The notes beneath the pieces were generated by a model. The model searched no databases. It was given only the letters and a program-made list of their open reading frames with translations, and was not told the origin of the DNA. Shown piece by piece: positions 1,193-17,187 of a stretch of 36,998 bases of DNA (the stretch's first letter is position 1; each line of letters starts with the position of its first letter). Source of the DNA: a virus; IMG/VR virus record IMGVR_UViG_3300031216_000031, positions 1 through 36,998 of that record, one strand, 5' to 3'. Made by a program: the position numbers and the translations under genes.

Positions 1193-3439
1193 TTAAAGAA
1201 TAAAATCAGTGTTTGACGCGGCACTCACGTCAGAAAATCTCTTGGAAACCTTATAAAAAACGCCTCGCGTCTTACGATTAGCCTCTAAATAAGTCTTTAA
1301 GGTTCTACCAAACCTCGCGGTTGAAAAAGCATAACGTCCACGGTTTTGCATTTCTAACCAATCTACATAAGCCAAATAAAGAGTAGGTGAAGAAACCTCT
1401 ACGCTACCCTCATCATCAACAAAAAGCCCATTTTCAGTGAGAAACTCCTCTACACTGTCCATCTCCCTAAACTTCTCTTGCTCTAACTTGACGGCTTTCA
1501 TATCCGTTAGGTAGATATCGTCGCGGTCCTCATCGATCCCCTGCCATAATTTAAGATAATCTATAGTGTTGATAGCGTTCCAATCAATACGGTTTTTACA
1601 CTTAAAATCCCAATAACGTCTAACTGACGTAGGGTCCTTGATAATATCAATGACCTCGTAGTTACTAGTACCAATAAAGCTACAAACTTTTTTACCTTTA
1701 TTCTTGGCGTTGGTGCCTAAAACTCTATAGGTCAGATAGTCAGCTGTAATTTTCTTTTTCAACGATTCAACATCAACTTTATTAGCCTTAGCCATCTCAT
1801 CAAAGTACATTATAAAGCTAGTCATTAACCTAAAGTCTTGTCTATCATCACCAAGTATAGAAACGTCTGCGGTGTCAACCACGTCGTTTAGTGGCGCACA
1901 TAAAGCCTCAACTGCTCTAGACTTCCCTGAGCCTGTTCGACCTGTGAAGATGGGCATCATGTGGTGTTGTAAATTACCTGACCAAATATTACGCTTAACT
2001 AGCCATATCCAGTGCTTGAGTACTTGCCTGTCAACGTCGCGGACCTCTGGCAGCACTGCCGTAAGAAACTTCTCAACCTCGTCGTTTTCACCTGTATAGC
2101 GTATACGGTCGCGCATCTCCAGGAGCTTAACCGCGCGCATACGCTTCTCGAAGTTGGATAGGGTTGCTTCGATTATAGCCTGGGTGACTGTACGATACTC
2201 AACCATGTGGGAAGTAGCACTATTGTAGACTCGGTAAATTTCCATTACAACGTCTGATAGAGGCATACTGACACCAGCAACAAACCATAGATTAGACAGA
2301 GTAACATCGAGGTTATTCTCTCGACACCAGGTATAGACGAACTCTGTGGCAGGTATTTTTTTAGTTTTTTCATGATCTTTAAATGCTGTTTTAGGTGCGT
2401 CTACTGGTACTGGTCTTTTGTCTTTAGCTAACTTAGACCATAGCGGACACTTAGCACTACACTTCGCGGACTTGATAGGCTCGAGGCAACCGTGGTTATA
2501 AAACCTGTCGCCCGCGTAAATAGCCTCTACCATCGTAGTTACTTCGTCAGTGGGAAAGCCTGACCTGGATGCCCAAGGTAGTACAACCTCGTAGCAGTAA
2601 TCTTTGTGTTTACCCGTTTTAAAAAGATCATTGATGATAATCAACGCGGTCGTATTACGCTCACCATCTGGGCAACGTGCCTCGATCAGACGTTTAATAC
2701 ATATCTTACCGTCAAAGCTCTCTAGCTTGGTAGGCTCGATAGCTGTGCCAGCCTTGGATTTATCGTATGCAGCACTGACCTTACAGTCCGCGACAAGACG
2801 CACGAGGTTCTCGTCTGGTTCTATAGGACCAAAAGAATCGTAACCCCTAGTATGGCGAGTCTTGCAAAATTCCTTGATACCGTCCATATCTCTACTACCA
2901 AGACCGTTAATTATAGTTTTATATAATCCCGTCTTAGGATGCTTGCTGTTAAGTGCGCGGAACTTGCGACCGATATTATAGACGCTAGTGTCCAGTGTCT
3001 TAAATGCAGGTTTTAGATGATGCGCCAGCTTGTTAAGAGTCTTAGGTAAGTCGGCGTCTGCCTCTAAGCCGAAATACTCAAACGGAATTGAGACATGAAA
3101 ACCCTTAGAGCCTGAAAATGCTACATAGAAGTTTTTTAGCTTCAAGTAATTAATAAATCGAATAACATCATTCAGGGATTGTGCCGCGTCTTCGTGATCG
3201 AAGTCAAAGCCTACAAGACCTAGAGCTGGTCTAGCTGGACCGCTTGCGCCCTTGAAAGTCGCTACGCCCTCGTCAACACCTAGACCGTCTGTAGTCACAT
3301 CGAAGTGATTATAGTAAGCCTCGCCGCCGTCGTGGTCTTGAATTGCTTGCGCTAGATCTTGTGCAGGTAGATGCCCCTCACTAGACTTGGCGAACTTTGA
3401 GGTTACTAGATAATTAACCCAACTCAATTGCAACCTCAA
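1193..3439 (-). CDS. primase-helicase: AEP-type primase with a SF3/VirE-like helicase
   Basis: A 748-residue replication enzyme expected to prime and unwind DNA at the nearby repeat region. The N-terminal half matches archaeo-eukaryotic primase-polymerases: DFD (79-81), SGSKGFHV (109-116), Asp150, and RKFRALNSKHPKTG (about 158-171). A Cys group (C318, C327, C331) may bind zinc. The C-terminal half is a superfamily 3 / virulence-associated protein E ATPase: Walker A GRTGSGKS (500-507), Walker B IMYFDEM (543-549), GTSN (600-603) and the DPTSVRRYW signature. The longest reading uses TTG at 3437-3439, directly after a stop. A second TTG at 3425-3427 has a GAGG site 6 bases upstream and may be the true start (744 residues). 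It overlaps the 27-codon peptide upstream, suggesting translational coupling. Confidence 0.85.
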   Translation of the reverse strand: MRLQLSWVNYLVTSKFAKSSEGHLPAQDLAQAIQDHDGGEAYYNHFDVTTDGLGVDEGVATFKGASGPARPALGLVGFDFDHEDAAQSLNDVIRFINYLKLKNFYVAFSGSKGFHVSIPFEYFGLEADADLPKTLNKLAHHLKPAFKTLDTSVYNIGRKFRALNSKHPKTGLYKTIINGLGSRDMDGIKEFCKTRHTRGYDSFGPIEPDENLVRLVADCKVSAAYDKSKAGTAIEPTKLESFDGKICIKRLIEARCPDGERNTTALIIINDLFKTGKHKDYCYEVVLPWASRSGFPTDEVTTMVEAIYAGDRFYNHGCLEPIKSAKCSAKCPLWSKLAKDKRPVPVDAPKTAFKDHEKTKKIPATEFVYTWCRENNLDVTLSNLWFVAGVSMPLSDVVMEIYRVYNSATSHMVEYRTVTQAIIEATLSNFEKRMRAVKLLEMRDRIRYTGENDEVEKFLTAVLPEVRDVDRQVLKHWIWLVKRNIWSGNLQHHMMPIFTGRTGSGKSRAVEALCAPLNDVVDTADVSILGDDRQDFRLMTSFIMYFDEMAKANKVDVESLKKKITADYLTYRVLGTNAKNKGKKVCSFIGTSNYEVIDIIKDPTSVRRYWDFKCKNRIDWNAINTIDYLKLWQGIDEDRDDIYLTDMKAVKLEQEKFREMDSVEEFLTENGLFVDDEGSVEVSSPTLYLAYVDWLEMQNRGRYAFSTARFGRTLKTYLEANRKTRGVFYKVSKRFSDVSAASNTDFIL

Positions 3440-3497
3440 TCAATACAAAAAATAGCGTCAGTGAAACTATAAAAATTCTAAGTGATCTATCCGACAT
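3414..3497 (-). CDS. 27-residue single-pass membrane peptide (tentative)
   Basis: An ATG overlaps the last codons of the gene at 3487-3693 (AATGTCGGATAG) and opens a short frame. The product starts MSDRSLR and then has a hydrophobic helix, IFIVSLTLFFVLIEVAI. Its end overlaps both possible TTG starts of the primase-helicase gene. It could be a real membrane peptide or a translated leader that couples the two genes. There is no homology evidence; support comes only from the overlap pattern and composition. Confidence 0.4.
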   Translation of the reverse strand: MSDRSLRIFIVSLTLFFVLIEVAIELG

Positions 3498-3693
3498 TTT
3501 TAGCCTCACTAGACTTGTAGGCAATATCTGCCCGTAGTAGAAACCCTCTACGATATTTGCTATAGTTAGATTCGTTCAACTCAAGCGGCTCGACGAGGTC
3601 GTCAAAGGCTTTTAGCTCAATCTCGACAACCTCCCAAGGCATATTGTAGTTTTCTGTGAACTTTTTACGGCTCATTTTTTCGTGTCTATTCAT
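3487..3693 (-). CDS. hypothetical protein, 68 aa, first gene of the primase operon
   Basis: Not recognised. A charged, mostly helical protein beginning MNRHEKMSRKKF, with no membrane segment or clear motif. It is the first gene of the leftward unit that includes the primase-helicase. The ATG at 3693 is preceded by the conserved leader GTAGGGGTAC six bases upstream, one of four such leaders in the window. A role in replication or its control is possible from position only. Confidence 0.7.
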   Translation of the reverse strand: MNRHEKMSRKKFTENYNMPWEVVEIELKAFDDLVEPLELNESNYSKYRRGFLLRADIAYKSSEAKNVG

Positions 3694-3699
3694 TTGTTT

Positions 3700-3709
3700 G
3701 TACCCCTAC
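3700..3709 (-). promoter_or_regulatory. conserved leader element GTAGGGGTAC (copy L1)
   Basis: Lies six bases before the ATG at 3691-3693 and includes the GGGG that serves as ribosome binding site. The complement of this ten-base element is in the loop of the candidate small RNA at 3782-3887. Confidence 0.7.
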
Positions 3710-3727
3710 ATTTCAATTTGAATCTAG

Positions 3728-3756
3728 AGAATAAATTAATCAAAGGGCTTTGACAA
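3728..3756 (-). promoter_or_regulatory. leftward promoter for the 68-aa gene and primase-helicase
   Basis: On the minus strand TTGTCA (3751-3756), 17 bases, TATTCT (3728-3733). Its -35 is the other face of the TTGACA used by the rightward small RNA promoter, so the two promoters oppose each other over the same bases. A second possible leftward promoter lies further up: TTGTAT (3796-3801), 16 bases, TATAAT (3774-3779). Confidence 0.45.
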
Positions 3757-3778
3757 GGTTTTTAAATAATTAGATTAT
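3750..3778 (+). promoter_or_regulatory. promoter of the candidate small RNA
   Basis: Consensus TTGACA (3750-3755), a 17-base spacer and GATTAT (3773-3778). It predicts a start near 3782-3786. No protein gene lies downstream on this strand before the terminator at 3833-3882. Confidence 0.6.
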
Positions 3779-3781
3779 AGT

Positions 3782-3887
3782 GGAGTGTGTTTTGTATACA
3801 AGTTATTTGCATTGCTTGTATATGGGTCTCCTAGCCGTCTAGATTTTCTGTAGTACCCCTACGATTCTCTAGACGGCTTTTTAATTT
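3782..3887 (+). ncRNA. candidate regulatory small RNA complementary to phage leader sequences
   Basis: About 100 nucleotides between a strong promoter and an intrinsic terminator, with no sensible reading frame. The 5' part folds into a hairpin: GGAG (3782-3785) with CTCC (3828-3831), and TATACAAG (3795-3802) with CTTGTATA (3815-3822) around a 12-base loop. The 3' part is the terminator hairpin, whose 24-base loop (3844-3867) contains GTACCCCTAC (3853-3862). That is the exact complement of the leader element at 3700, 6493, 6650 and 10578; against the 6493 leader the match extends to 14 bases (GTACCCCTACGATT). Within the loop GTAG and CTAC could form a small stem that presents the C-run. Pairing would cover the ribosome binding sites. 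Transcription and pairing are inferred. Confidence 0.55.
3833..3882 (+). terminator. intrinsic terminator with 11-bp perfect stem
   Basis: AGCCGTCTAGA (3833-3843) pairs with TCTAGACGGCT (3868-3878) and is followed by TTTTT (3878-3882). On the minus strand the stem is not followed by a T-run, so it acts rightward. It closes the candidate small RNA. Confidence 0.75.
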
Positions 3888-3926
3888 CATGAAACAATAT
3901 TAATTCACCAAGCATTTTGCTAACGT

Positions 3927-3975
3927 CCATATTCGACTATGGATGCCAGACCGACCCTAGTACATTGCTAGGGTC
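3927..3975. other. two adjacent hairpins at the end of the leftward small-gene operon
   Basis: TCCATA/TATGGA with a six-base loop (about 3927-3944) and GACCCTAG/CTAGGGTC with a seven-base loop (3953-3960 and 3968-3975). Neither is followed by a convincing T-run in either direction. They may stabilise the 3' end of the leftward transcript or continue the structured region that begins at 3782. The rest of 3888-3982 shows no gene. Confidence 0.4.
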
Positions 3976-3982
3976 ATTTCTG

Positions 3983-4153
3983 CTATTTAACTTTAACAAC
4001 CTCGCCGAACTTAAACATGGCAGCTCTGCGTGTTGCCTCCTCTAGTGTTAGTCTTGTAGCAACATTCACTGAGCTTGTAGAGTTTCTCATAGCCTCTATA
4101 GTCCAGTAAAAAGCCTTGCCCTTACCACTTCTTTTAACGATGTAATCTTTCAT
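3983..4153 (-). CDS. hypothetical protein, 56 aa
   Basis: Not recognised. A small basic protein (MKDYIVKRSGKGKAFYWTIE...), with a beta-like first half and a helical second half containing LTLEEATRRAAMFK. Its ATG overlaps the stop of the preceding gene (TAATG), so translation is probably coupled. It is the last gene of the leftward small-gene operon. Confidence 0.65.
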   Translation of the reverse strand: MKDYIVKRSGKGKAFYWTIEAMRNSTSSVNVATRLTLEEATRRAAMFKFGEVVKVK

Positions 4154-6158: not shown

Positions 6159-6338
6159 TTACTCCTTATCTAAAAAGATTGACGTATTTACTAAAGTAAT
6201 TAAAAAATCTACATCGGTGACGGTTGCAGGGTCCGCGCACCACATATAAGGTAGTAGCCGCGTTTCAACTTCTGCCCGACTTAACTGCAGCTTGTCGGCT
6301 ACCTCTTGATAATAATCTATTATCTTATCGTTTCCCAT
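6159..6338 (-). CDS. hypothetical protein, 59 aa
   Basis: Not recognised. A helical acidic protein beginning MGNDKIIDYYQEVADKLQLS. The segment KLQLSRAEVETRLL could be a helix-turn-helix but is too short to be sure. The ATG overlaps the stop of the first gene of the operon (6338-6487). The gene ends in AAGGAG, which serves as the binding site of the next gene. Confidence 0.65.
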   Translation of the reverse strand: MGNDKIIDYYQEVADKLQLSRAEVETRLLPYMWCADPATVTDVDFLITLVNTSIFLDKE

Positions 6339-6487
6339 TACGCCCCTGCCTTAGCTGCAAATATAGCGTTAAGCTTTTTCAAGGTATCAACTTTCAACTC
6401 TTTTAAAAACTCAATCTCATAAGCCATAAACTCAGTAGATAATTTCTGATCAATTGTAACTAGTAGTTTCTGTAATTTCTTTTCCAT
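6338..6487 (-). CDS. hypothetical protein, 49 aa, first gene of the leftward operon
   Basis: Not recognised. A nearly all-helical basic protein, MEKKLQKLLVTIDQKLSTEF and on, ending AAKAGA. Its leader holds GTAGGGGTAC five bases before the ATG and has the longest match (14 bases) to the candidate small RNA. It is divergent from the gene at 6665, which has the same leader element. Confidence 0.65.
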   Translation of the reverse strand: MEKKLQKLLVTIDQKLSTEFMAYEIEFLKELKVDTLKKLNAIFAAKAGA

Positions 6488-6492
6488 GATTC

Positions 6493-6502
6493 GTACCCCT
6501 AC
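6493..6502 (-). promoter_or_regulatory. conserved leader element GTAGGGGTAC (copy L2)
   Basis: Five bases before the ATG at 6485-6487. Its 14-base extension on the plus strand (6493-6506) is identical to 3853-3866 in the loop of the candidate small RNA, so an RNA made there could pair with this leader over its ribosome binding site. Confidence 0.7.
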
Positions 6503-6531
6503 GATTAATTGTTAATGTTTATTACTTAGCT

Positions 6532-6599: not shown

Positions 6600-6647
6600 T
6601 TGACTATAGGTATCTTATAGCCAATTATAAGAGTCAATCAATATAAT
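6600..6647 (+). promoter_or_regulatory. rightward early promoter region
   Basis: TTGACT at 6600-6605 with AT-rich candidate -10 boxes at 6623-6631 (imperfect) and TATAAT at 6642-6647. CTATA and TATAG face each other at 6604-6620, and TTGACT/AGTCAA (6600-6605, 6632-6637) form a wider inverted repeat that could be an operator. The exact start cannot be chosen from the sequence. Confidence 0.35.
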
Positions 6648-6649
6648 TA

Positions 6650-6659
6650 GTAGGGGTAC
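6650..6659 (+). promoter_or_regulatory. conserved leader element GTAGGGGTAC (copy R1)
   Basis: Five bases before the ATG at 6665. It is the first leader of the rightward operon and faces copy L2 across the divergent control region. Confidence 0.7.
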
Positions 6660-6664
6660 AATTT

Positions 6665-6925
6665 ATGGAACTTAATCAAGACATTATTAACGCGGCTGTA
6701 GCTAAACTAGAGCCTATTGAGGTAGGCGAGCTATCTAAGATGATCGACGCTTTCAAAGAGTATCAGTTAGAGGTATCTAACCTATCTGACCTGGTAGATG
6801 GCTTTGAGACGCTAGCAAAGAGGGCGCAAGAACAGATAAAGCACATCAAGGTCCTAGCAGACTTAGAGACTTACGGTAACGCGTTCGAGACTACTGCTAC
6901 TTACGAGTATATAAAAGGATTATAG
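6665..6925 (+). CDS. hypothetical protein, 86 aa, first gene of the rightward operon
   Basis: Not recognised. An acidic, almost entirely helical protein (MELNQDIINAAVAKLEPIEV...), with heptad-like spacing in the middle suggesting a coiled coil. The next gene starts directly after its stop. Its position at the head of the operon and its leader element suggest an early gene. Confidence 0.7.
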   Translation: MELNQDIINAAVAKLEPIEVGELSKMIDAFKEYQLEVSNLSDLVDGFETLAKRAQEQIKHIKVLADLETYGNAFETTATYEYIKGL

Positions 6926-10577: not shown

Positions 10578-10587
10578 GTAGGGGTAC
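10578..10587 (+). promoter_or_regulatory. conserved leader element GTAGGGGTAC (copy R2)
   Basis: Five bases before the ATG at 10593, in the 42-base gap after the helicase gene. The match to the small RNA loop is 11 bases here (with the preceding C on the coding strand). Confidence 0.65.
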
Positions 10588-10592
10588 GAAAA

Positions 10593-11027
10593 ATGACACA
10601 AGAAATTAATTTGAGTGAGCTTCAAGAAGCGTGTAAAAAAATGTTTATTCAAAAAGCTAAAGTGGCTAAGATGAAAGAATTAAAAACCATCGAGGAAAAA
10701 ATATTTTCTGATATGGAAAATGGAATCATCGACATGCTCGAACATCACAATTTGAAAACTTTTGACACGGGATTTGGTAAAGTTACTAGGACTAATAAGC
10801 CCTACGCCAAGATCACAGACAAAGACGCTCTAGGTAAATTTTTAAAAGAGCGCGGTATTTTTGAGGATCTCATAACATTTAACGCGGCAAAAATGAATAG
10901 CTTTTATAATGAAGAAATGGACCGCGCCAAAGAAAACATGGACTTAGATTTTAAAGTCGATGGCATGGAAATATCAAGCAATAGAGTTAAATTATCAGTT
11001 AGGAATATAGACCTAAGCAACCAATAA
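10593..11027 (+). CDS. hypothetical protein, 144 aa, upstream of the ssDNA-binding protein
   Basis: Not recognised. A helical, charged N-terminal half (residues 1-50), then VTRTNKPYAKITDKDALGKF and a C-terminal strand region. It may be a recombination or nuclease-control protein, as genes placed before phage ssDNA-binding proteins often are, but no motif proves this. It has its own conserved leader, so it is probably regulated together with the operon starts. Confidence 0.7.
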   Translation: MTQEINLSELQEACKKMFIQKAKVAKMKELKTIEEKIFSDMENGIIDMLEHHNLKTFDTGFGKVTRTNKPYAKITDKDALGKFLKERGIFEDLITFNAAKMNSFYNEEMDRAKENMDLDFKVDGMEISSNRVKLSVRNIDLSNQ

Positions 11028-15492: not shown

Positions 15493-17187
15493 TTATACTA
15501 CCTCAATTACTGTTTGTGATGCTATATACTTAGCCGTAGCACCCGACGTGCCTGATCTAATCTGCAGCTTTATTGTTTTTGCCCCTAGTGGCAAGTCTGA
15601 GCTGTAAGAAACTACAGACGAGGGTACCCTATATAAGGTTGATGAAGCACCCCCCGAACTAATCCCCATACGTAACGTATAAATAATAGACGAACCGATC
15701 AAGATAAAAAGATCACCTCTAGACGAAGTGGCACTATTAACGCACTCTAGGTGACTCGCTTCGCTTCCCCCGTCCCCTACGGTGTATAAGTTCATTTTCT
15801 GTCTGCCTCGGGACAGCACCAAAACGCTTGCCCCTGTTATATCGGTTGCGTCTGTAGAGGTCGTACTAAAAGATGAGACATAATCCATTTTATAAACATT
15901 CTCGCCTTTTTCTGACCAAATGGTAGTTAAATCGTCTGACGAATCGTTGTAAGCCATACCGAGTAGTCGCCAAGACTCGTATGGATGATAATCACCCCTA
16001 AGATCTTCTCTGTAGTAAGGCTTCTGAGTATCCATAACTCTCTTACCTAACTCCGTTAAGTACAAGTAATAAACTGTAGAAGTAGACTCACTCAAGCCAC
16101 TAGCTAAATCTGTAGTTATATTCCAGGTTAACTTAGTTCCCCCTAGATTGACCGTATTACCGTAAACGCTTACCGCGCCTATGTGACTTTTAGACTCGAC
16201 GACAGACGTACTAAACGATTCTAACTCTACGTTGTTCAATTCCCTAAAGCCATTCGAGTAATCTATAGACCGAGTAGCTACACAGTTCGCTGCATCTATG
16301 ACAACCTTCCCAACCAGTATACGGTTTATAATAACAAAACTAGTACCGTCGTGACGTTTCCACAAGGCGTTAGAGATATCATACCAGTAGTCACCTGCAT
16401 TCGGTGAGCTTGGAGCAGTAAACGAGTAGACCGGTTGTGTGTAACTAACATCGACTGTAGTACCATTATTTTCTACGAATACGTTGCCGGTAGCCATCAA
16501 TGTTAAAACGTCATTGTTAGACAAGTTTGCTCTCTCTACTGGGTCTCCCGAATCGTCTAGGAAAAACCCGCGAAACACGTTTGTAAGTGTCGTAGCATCT
16601 TTGACGTATGCGTACATATACTCGTTGTTAGATGATTTTAGAGTTATATATTGACCAACTTTATCACTGATATTTGACCCTACCGCGTCGATAGTAATTA
16701 CTGTACTATCTTCACCAGCGTACAGGTCGTCAGTCATGTTTGAGTCGTTAACCGCACATGTATTATTTGAGCTTGGAGCTAATGCCAATGAACCCACTAC
16801 AATGTCGGTATCTACTGTCACAGCCGTAGCATTAATACTCAGCAATAAGTTTACTGTGTTACCCAACAAACTAAACGCGTTTGTAGACCCGTCTGCCCGC
16901 AAAAAATCAGACAGCGCGCTTAAAGTTCTGCTAGGTCCACTAATAACCCTATTAGCCTCCGCTACTAGGTTGGCTGTGTCTATCGCTTGCCCACCTAATA
17001 TAAGACTCCCACCGAATATAGTACCCCAAGGCAGCGCAGTAGTTCCAAGAGACCTACCAGCCTCGGCGACCCCTGATGTATTTCTACCTACAAACTGGTT
17101 TGTTAATGCGCTTGCTAGTTCATTGTGATCAGACGCGTCTATAACGTCCCCGTTACTTATCGCTGTATCTATTGTATTAGTTCCCAT
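15493..17187 (-). CDS. tail fibre-like structural protein, 564 aa
   Basis: A Gly/Ser/Thr/Asn-rich, beta-type protein at the distal end of the tail module. The N-terminal part has features common in phage tail proteins (NGDVIDASDHNELASALTNQ; FVGRNTSGVAEAGRSLGTTA; FLRADGS), usual in fibre heads that attach to the tail tip. The middle includes a YWYDISNALWKRHDG segment typical of fibre repeats. Probable receptor-binding or tail-tip protein. A clear AAGGAGTAAATAAAA site precedes the ATG. Confidence 0.7.
   Translation of the reverse strand: MGTNTIDTAISNGDVIDASDHNELASALTNQFVGRNTSGVAEAGRSLGTTALPWGTIFGGSLILGGQAIDTANLVAEANRVISGPSRTLSALSDFLRADGSTNAFSLLGNTVNLLLSINATAVTVDTDIVVGSLALAPSSNNTCAVNDSNMTDDLYAGEDSTVITIDAVGSNISDKVGQYITLKSSNNEYMYAYVKDATTLTNVFRGFFLDDSGDPVERANLSNNDVLTLMATGNVFVENNGTTVDVSYTQPVYSFTAPSSPNAGDYWYDISNALWKRHDGTSFVIINRILVGKVVIDAANCVATRSIDYSNGFRELNNVELESFSTSVVESKSHIGAVSVYGNTVNLGGTKLTWNITTDLASGLSESTSTVYYLYLTELGKRVMDTQKPYYREDLRGDYHPYESWRLLGMAYNDSSDDLTTIWSEKGENVYKMDYVSSFSTTSTDATDITGASVLVLSRGRQKMNLYTVGDGGSEASHLECVNSATSSRGDLFILIGSSIIYTLRMGISSGGASSTLYRVPSSVVSYSSDLPLGAKTIKLQIRSGTSGATAKYIASQTVIEVV

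Follow-up and report, generated by a model that had tools for sequence, protein, structure and literature searches.

The window, that is, the whole 36,998-base virus record analyzed here, comes from an uncultured tailed phage and contains a ten-base tag in the leaders of four genes, a hairpin whose loop is complementary to this tag, and around the hairpin a unit (3750-3882, plus strand) that is conserved in two related phages. Very probably this unit is a genuine small RNA gene that works by pairing of loop and tag, its transcription being inferred. The best explanation of the whole, and in our judgement a probable one, is a phage small RNA of about 100 nt that represses the translation of the early operons, most likely in trans. 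The interpretation given in an earlier note on this DNA, which had read the region as a small RNA with an anti-leader loop, was right in substance, as the unit is conserved in two relatives and the leader matches exceed those of shuffled sequences. The gene set of the window includes a VapE-like primase, an SNF2 helicase, a DNA polymerase A, an exonuclease, a DUF7307 protein and a Pam3 gp34-like protein.

The unit is located in a stretch without genes, bounded on one side by gene 3693 and on the other by the leftward operon that ends with gene 3983-4153. Its promoter, TTGACA-17-GATTAT (3750-3778, plus strand; TTGACA at 3750-3755, GATTAT at 3773-3778), has a -35 box that overlaps back to back with the -35 box (TTGTCA) of the leftward operon of gene 3693 and the primase. 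From this promoter a start near 3784 is inferred, giving an RNA of about 100 nt (3784-3882, plus strand) that comprises a 5' hairpin of 12 bp (3792-3825) and a terminator-type hairpin (3833-3882). In the latter, AGCCGTCTAGA (3833-3843) pairs with TCTAGACGGCT (3868-3878) in an 11-bp stem, enclosing a 24-nt loop (3844-3867) and followed by TTTTT (3878-3882); it was missed by a terminator scanner because the program permits loops of 3-8 nt only. The predicted fold of 3784-3890 (107 nt) reaches -33.2 kcal/mol, with a z-score of -6.1, and none of 200 shuffled sequences was equally stable. A small peptide gene within the RNA was rejected, since the plus strand of 3784-3882 lacks an ORF of 40 aa. Thus the promoter, the two hairpins, the T-run and the absence of a gene, all proposed previously, are confirmed, and the unit possesses its own promoter and intrinsic terminator with no conserved ORF. 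No match to the small RNA was obtained in Rfam at gathering scores, including the c4 antisense RNA (RF01695), and a permissive Rfam search returned the trpB motif alone, at 24 bits (gathering score 59); a search of phage-record DNA with 3600-4000 as query also gave no match. Elsewhere in this stretch, a perfect 10-bp hairpin without a T-run, GACCCTAGTACATTGCTAGGGTC (3953-3975), directly follows the stop of gene 3983-4153.

Across both strands, the window holds exactly five copies of the tag, GTAGGGGTAC: four occupy ribosome-binding positions and one lies antisense in the hairpin loop, in agreement with the proposal that the loop is complementary to a leader element of genes 3693, 6487, 6665 and 10593. 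The antisense copy, GTACCCCTAC (3853-3862, plus strand), is contained within a mini-hairpin, GTAG-TACCC-CTAC (3850-3862). All four leader tags stop 5-6 nt ahead of the ATG of their gene. The first (3700-3709, minus strand) belongs to gene 3693 (3487-3693, minus strand), which codes for a 68-aa protein without matches in Pfam or PHROG searches; this is the first gene of the primase operon, upstream of the primase/helicase with its VapE-like domain (1193-3439, minus strand). The second (6493-6502, minus strand) precedes gene 6487 (6338-6487, minus strand; 49 aa, unknown), the first of a leftward operon, and here the match to the loop extends to 14 nt (6493-6506), as previously noted. The third (6650-6659, plus strand) precedes gene 6665 (6665-6925, plus strand; 86 aa, unknown), which opens a rightward operon and has homologues in the relatives, while the fourth (10578-10587, plus strand) is found 25 nt behind a TTGACA-17-TAAATT site, in the leader of gene 10593 (10593-11027, plus strand), whose product is Pam3 gp33-like (DUF7307). 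All four genes come first behind a promoter-like site; three of these sites have a TTGACA or TTGTCA -35 box, and a TTGACT site at 6600 is likely to be the promoter of gene 6665. A backwards control pattern of the tag does not occur in the window, and TAGGGGTAC and GTAGGGGTA are the sole 9-mers found in at least three of its leaders. The targets previously suggested, namely the genes that open the two divergent operons, are among them, but the set is wider and covers four transcription units. A role in lysis timing, also suggested, is not supported, as no lysis gene is involved and the tagged genes open replication or early operons (primase, both divergent operons and DUF7307).

The complementarity exceeds what is expected by chance. 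The longest matches of the loop in the whole genome are to the four leaders (14, 11, 10 and 10 nt), together with one further 10-nt site. The best four loop-leader duplexes have a mean predicted energy of -23.5 kcal/mol, versus -17.3 kcal/mol (sd 1.7) for shuffled loops; this value was reached by 2 of 500 shuffles in which CCCC was kept and by none of 500 free shuffles. CCCC was retained because these phages commonly use GGGGUA as a Shine-Dalgarno core, which by itself favours C-rich loop partners. When leaders with at least nine matched bases were counted instead, their number was equalled by 13 of 1000 CCCC-kept shuffles for the window, 0 of 1000 for one relative (G001) and 5 of 1000 for the other (G002); the count for the window is too low, since the gene caller omitted the 49-aa gene 6487. 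At G002, matches of 7-9 nt are present at several genes and are marginal against shuffles at the 8-nt and 10-nt cut-offs. The small RNA thus matches several separate leaders better than the shuffled control does, as the earlier note had asked to be checked.

Scans of IMG/VR with the primase, helicase, polymerase, exonuclease, gp34 and capsid identified only two phages that share this early region, G001 (L006, contig 3300048881_000221) and G002 (L007, contig 3300017782_000066), whose primases and helicases are 50-51% and 65-66% identical to those of the window. In both, the unit is located directly upstream of the primase operon, on the opposite strand, and has the order TTGACAAG-N-GATTAT/GATAAT (GATWAT), 5' hairpin, long hairpin, with fold z-scores of -5.0 (L006) and -4.5 (L007). 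The 5' hairpins are of other sequence, and so are the stems of the long hairpin, all of which are nonetheless paired (AGCCGTCTAGA/TCTAGACGGCT; CGCCCTCG/CGAGGGCG; AACCCCTAGCCG/CGGTTAGGGGTT), whereas an 11-base block of the loop, TAGTACCCCTA, is invariant in the three phages. The T-run after the long hairpin is present in G002 and only partial in G001 (a poor U-tract, GUUUA). Most of the corresponding leaders in the two relatives bear the tag, and in both the primase is directly preceded by a variant of it. In G001, TAGGGGTAC is found in the leaders of the primase (GTAGGGGTACAATG), of the first leftward gene (GTAGGGGTACTGCATG) and of the gene before DUF7307 (TAGGGGTACTATATG); the DUF7307 leader holds GGGGTACTA (GGGGTACTAAATG), and that of the first rightward gene (AGGGGTGCTA) can pair at 11 positions, one of them G-U. 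The G002 tags are exact at L007:7859 (CTAGGGGTACT) and at contig position 16269 (TAGGGGTACTA), and elsewhere are shortened or use G-U pairs: at the primase (TACTAGGGG), the first leftward gene, the first rightward gene and DUF7307, with matches of 8-9 nt at the primase and DUF7307. The loop of G002 has changed from GTAG..CTAC to CTAG..CTAG, and the leader of gene L007:7859 has changed to CTAGGGGTAC accordingly, so that loop and leader shift together, as anticipated for a pairing RNA, in a unit otherwise kept with different stems.

So far the small RNA is confined to these three phages only. A more distant relative (L010/G003; helicase 45% identical) lacks TAGGGGTAC, and searches by DNA polymerase, exonuclease, gp34 and capsid yielded no additional phage sharing the early region. 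Two further candidates, G010 and G009, were rejected as relatives for the unit, having only structural genes in common and lacking TAGGGGTA. An IMG/VR scan for GTAGTACCCCTACN{6,36}TTTT gave 56 matches, mostly chance or coding, and none of those listed showed a matching hairpin with repeated leader tags. IMG/VR contig 3300031269_000208, an 11.5-kb fragment that does not cover the early region, encodes a capsid protein identical to that of the window and is a near-identical phage from another sample. In G002, near-identical tandem repeats encoding repetitive WEA-type motifs (L007:9543-9860) lie just upstream of the small RNA unit.

According to the proposed mechanism, the terminator hairpin would present its C-rich loop, UAGUACCCCUA, to the shared tag, GUAGGGGUAC, which forms the Shine-Dalgarno region of the first gene in each of four early transcription units. 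The loop folds as a mini-hairpin, GUAG-UACCC-CUAC, in which UACCC is predicted to be unpaired with a probability of 1.0, and the tag is able to fold as GUA-GGGG-UAC; since both hold short self-complementary arms (GUA/UAC), the tags have an accessibility of about 0.4, and in the loop only UACCC is accessible. UACCC may therefore kiss GGGG, with pairing then spreading to 10-14 bp, and kissing followed by zippering in the window is predicted to yield duplexes of -20 to -25 kcal/mol, far stronger than the predicted pairing of the tag with the 16S tail (about -6.6 kcal/mol). As GGGG is located 4-9 nt ahead of the start codon, the duplex would cover the Shine-Dalgarno region, masking GGGG and blocking 30S loading. 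A single RNA could in this way reduce translation from four units at once: the primase operon, the two divergent operons and the operon of DUF7307. Repression is the likely effect, inferred without expression data, and the timing is likewise an inference, in which the small RNA would serve as a brake on the early genes once it has accumulated.

Because the direction of the effect cannot be read from pairing alone, the RNA might act on the tags otherwise, by activating or stabilizing the mRNAs, or the tagged mRNAs might sponge an RNA aimed mainly at host mRNAs; host targets are not excluded, the host being unassigned (the nearest annotated capsids found in a host search are merely 31-38% identical, and genome scans revealed no close prophage). 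However, pairing would cover the ribosome-binding site and the leaders have no long inhibitory structure to open, and such an outcome appears unlikely. A second reading does without the RNA: the tag would be the site of a phage protein, such as a RegA-like translational repressor, or simply a strong Shine-Dalgarno sequence, and its antisense copy incidental. GGGGU can indeed form 5 bp with the 16S tail, and other genes are also preceded by similar G-rich sites. Yet ten conserved bases exceed the need of a Shine-Dalgarno sequence, and the duplex of the tag with the 16S tail is average for the genes of this phage (-6.6 versus -6.7 kcal/mol, predicted); moreover, the antisense copy is retained in the loop of all three phages, and the RNA holds the complement of the tag, to which a protein that recognizes the tag would not bind, making this explanation quite improbable. 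Finally, GTAGGGGTAC as a DNA operator for a phage repressor just past each early promoter, with the hairpin as an ordinary terminator containing a fifth operator, is very unlikely: a promoter-like site is found within about 40 nt of most tags and the element has dyad arms (GTA/TAC), but GGGG lacks dyad symmetry, the hairpin loop that has the fifth copy at its centre is borne on unrelated stems in the three phages, the tags keep their spacing from the start codon whereas that from the promoter varies, and tags also precede internal genes without a nearby promoter (L156:2769, L156:6305, L157:16269). The constant start distance, the variable promoter distance and these promoterless genes are the reasons for which action of the tag at the RNA level is preferred.

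To our knowledge, phage small RNAs with known phage targets are few and mostly form single cis-antisense pairs; if the repressor reading is true, a common tag lets one RNA address all early operons, a simple RNA regulon in a 37-kb genome. In the c4 phage RNA, single-stranded parts pair near a ribosome-binding site. The present RNA resembles it in this respect, while c4 has a single target in cis and the RNA of the window is without an Rfam match; c4, the antisense RNA of P1/P7-type phages, corresponds to RF01695 (listed in PMC2864571). OOP and aQ of lambda and sar of P22 (reviewed in PMC12197685) are also phage RNAs that pair with a phage mRNA and block its expression. They are encoded opposite one target, and OOP and sar form long perfect pairing with it, whereas the window RNA lies in a gene-free stretch with its four tags elsewhere and is proposed to address several distant leaders. 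VpdS of phage VP882 and PreS of lambda (PMC12197685) are trans-acting phage small RNAs; unlike the RNA proposed here they are Hfq-dependent with mainly host targets, and a shared tag in phage leaders is not reported for them. In S. aureus RNAIII, the streptococcal csRNAs and E. coli CyaR (PMC2837412), a C-rich hairpin loop pairs with the ribosome-binding sites of several mRNAs, and the unpaired C-rich loop of the window faces several Shine-Dalgarno sequences in the same way, with no sequence kinship claimed. These regulators are, however, chromosomal and control host genes, while in the window a single small phage genome encodes both the RNA and its proposed targets, which have an identical 10-nt tag in common.

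The closest arrangement is that of the Start-Associated Sequences (SAS) of Cluster K mycobacteriophages, for which a single reverse copy was seen in three genomes (Pope et al. 2011, PMC3203893); the discoverers left undecided whether RNA or protein reads them (PMC3203893). As in the window, a short tag, GGGATAGGAGCCC, is found at the ribosome-binding position of many genes, is conserved beyond Shine-Dalgarno pairing and has one reverse copy. The element itself is different from GTAGGGGTAC, the tags number 13-19 versus four, and sequence and host are unrelated. In Adephagia, Angelica and CrimD, the reverse copy is situated within a hairpin loop, antisense to 13-19 SAS tags; this hairpin, with a stem of 20 bp, lies near the right end (Angelica 58,609-58,674; L212:38610-38675) and shares its strand with the right-arm genes. 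Of mycobacteriophage records, 159 contain the hairpin region, frequently with no gene annotated there, and Rfam has no match to it. The loop is an exact anti-tag in seven phages (Angelica, CrimD, Adephagia, Anaya, Validus, SgtBeansprout and Peanam), and the stem of the K1 hairpin covaries, with 18 cells altered on both sides (0 of 500 shuffles). In contrast to the window, no independent small RNA promoter has been shown for the K1 hairpin, and outside K1 the loop is unmatched. The hairpin persists in Ekdilam, Ximenita, Unicorn and Syra333 with altered loops, CTCCTTCCCC and CTCCCTTCCC, with predicted pairing of -13.4 and -13.6 versus -21.7 kcal/mol, while their tags are still GGGATAGGAG (13-15 copies in those listed); no anti-SAS hairpin was found in TM4, Pixie (30000-61147 only), Keshu and ShedlockHolmes. 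SAS can therefore persist without an exact anti-loop, and, judging from sequence alone, the change of loop without a change of tag in other subclusters limits the K1 parallel.

In practical terms the parallel with SAS weighs most: described in 2011, they still have no known function, although later reports of an RNA at the hairpin are not excluded. Since M. smegmatis mc2 155, a laboratory strain, is a host for Cluster K1 phages, the tag/anti-tag idea can be tested directly in them. That unrelated phages, namely the clade of the window, Cluster K1 and possibly a third phage (L023), independently evolved a tag and an anti-tag hairpin RNA that sets the translation of a whole gene set is a tentative suggestion, which we regard as possible without favouring it. 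When 133 loci were scanned blindly for hairpins with a loop antisense to at least three leaders, the window and G001 were recovered and L023 was pointed out; matches in L024, L178 and L182 were discarded as tandem repeats or scattered matches. L023 (IMGVR_UViG_3300025635_001387) is a GC-rich phage with eight leaders of the type GG(G)AGACAC, and may be a further case of the same design: a strong hairpin behind a gene (L023:8791-8842) has a 12-nt loop, CCACTGTGTCTCCCGG, that contains the antisense GTGTCTCCC.
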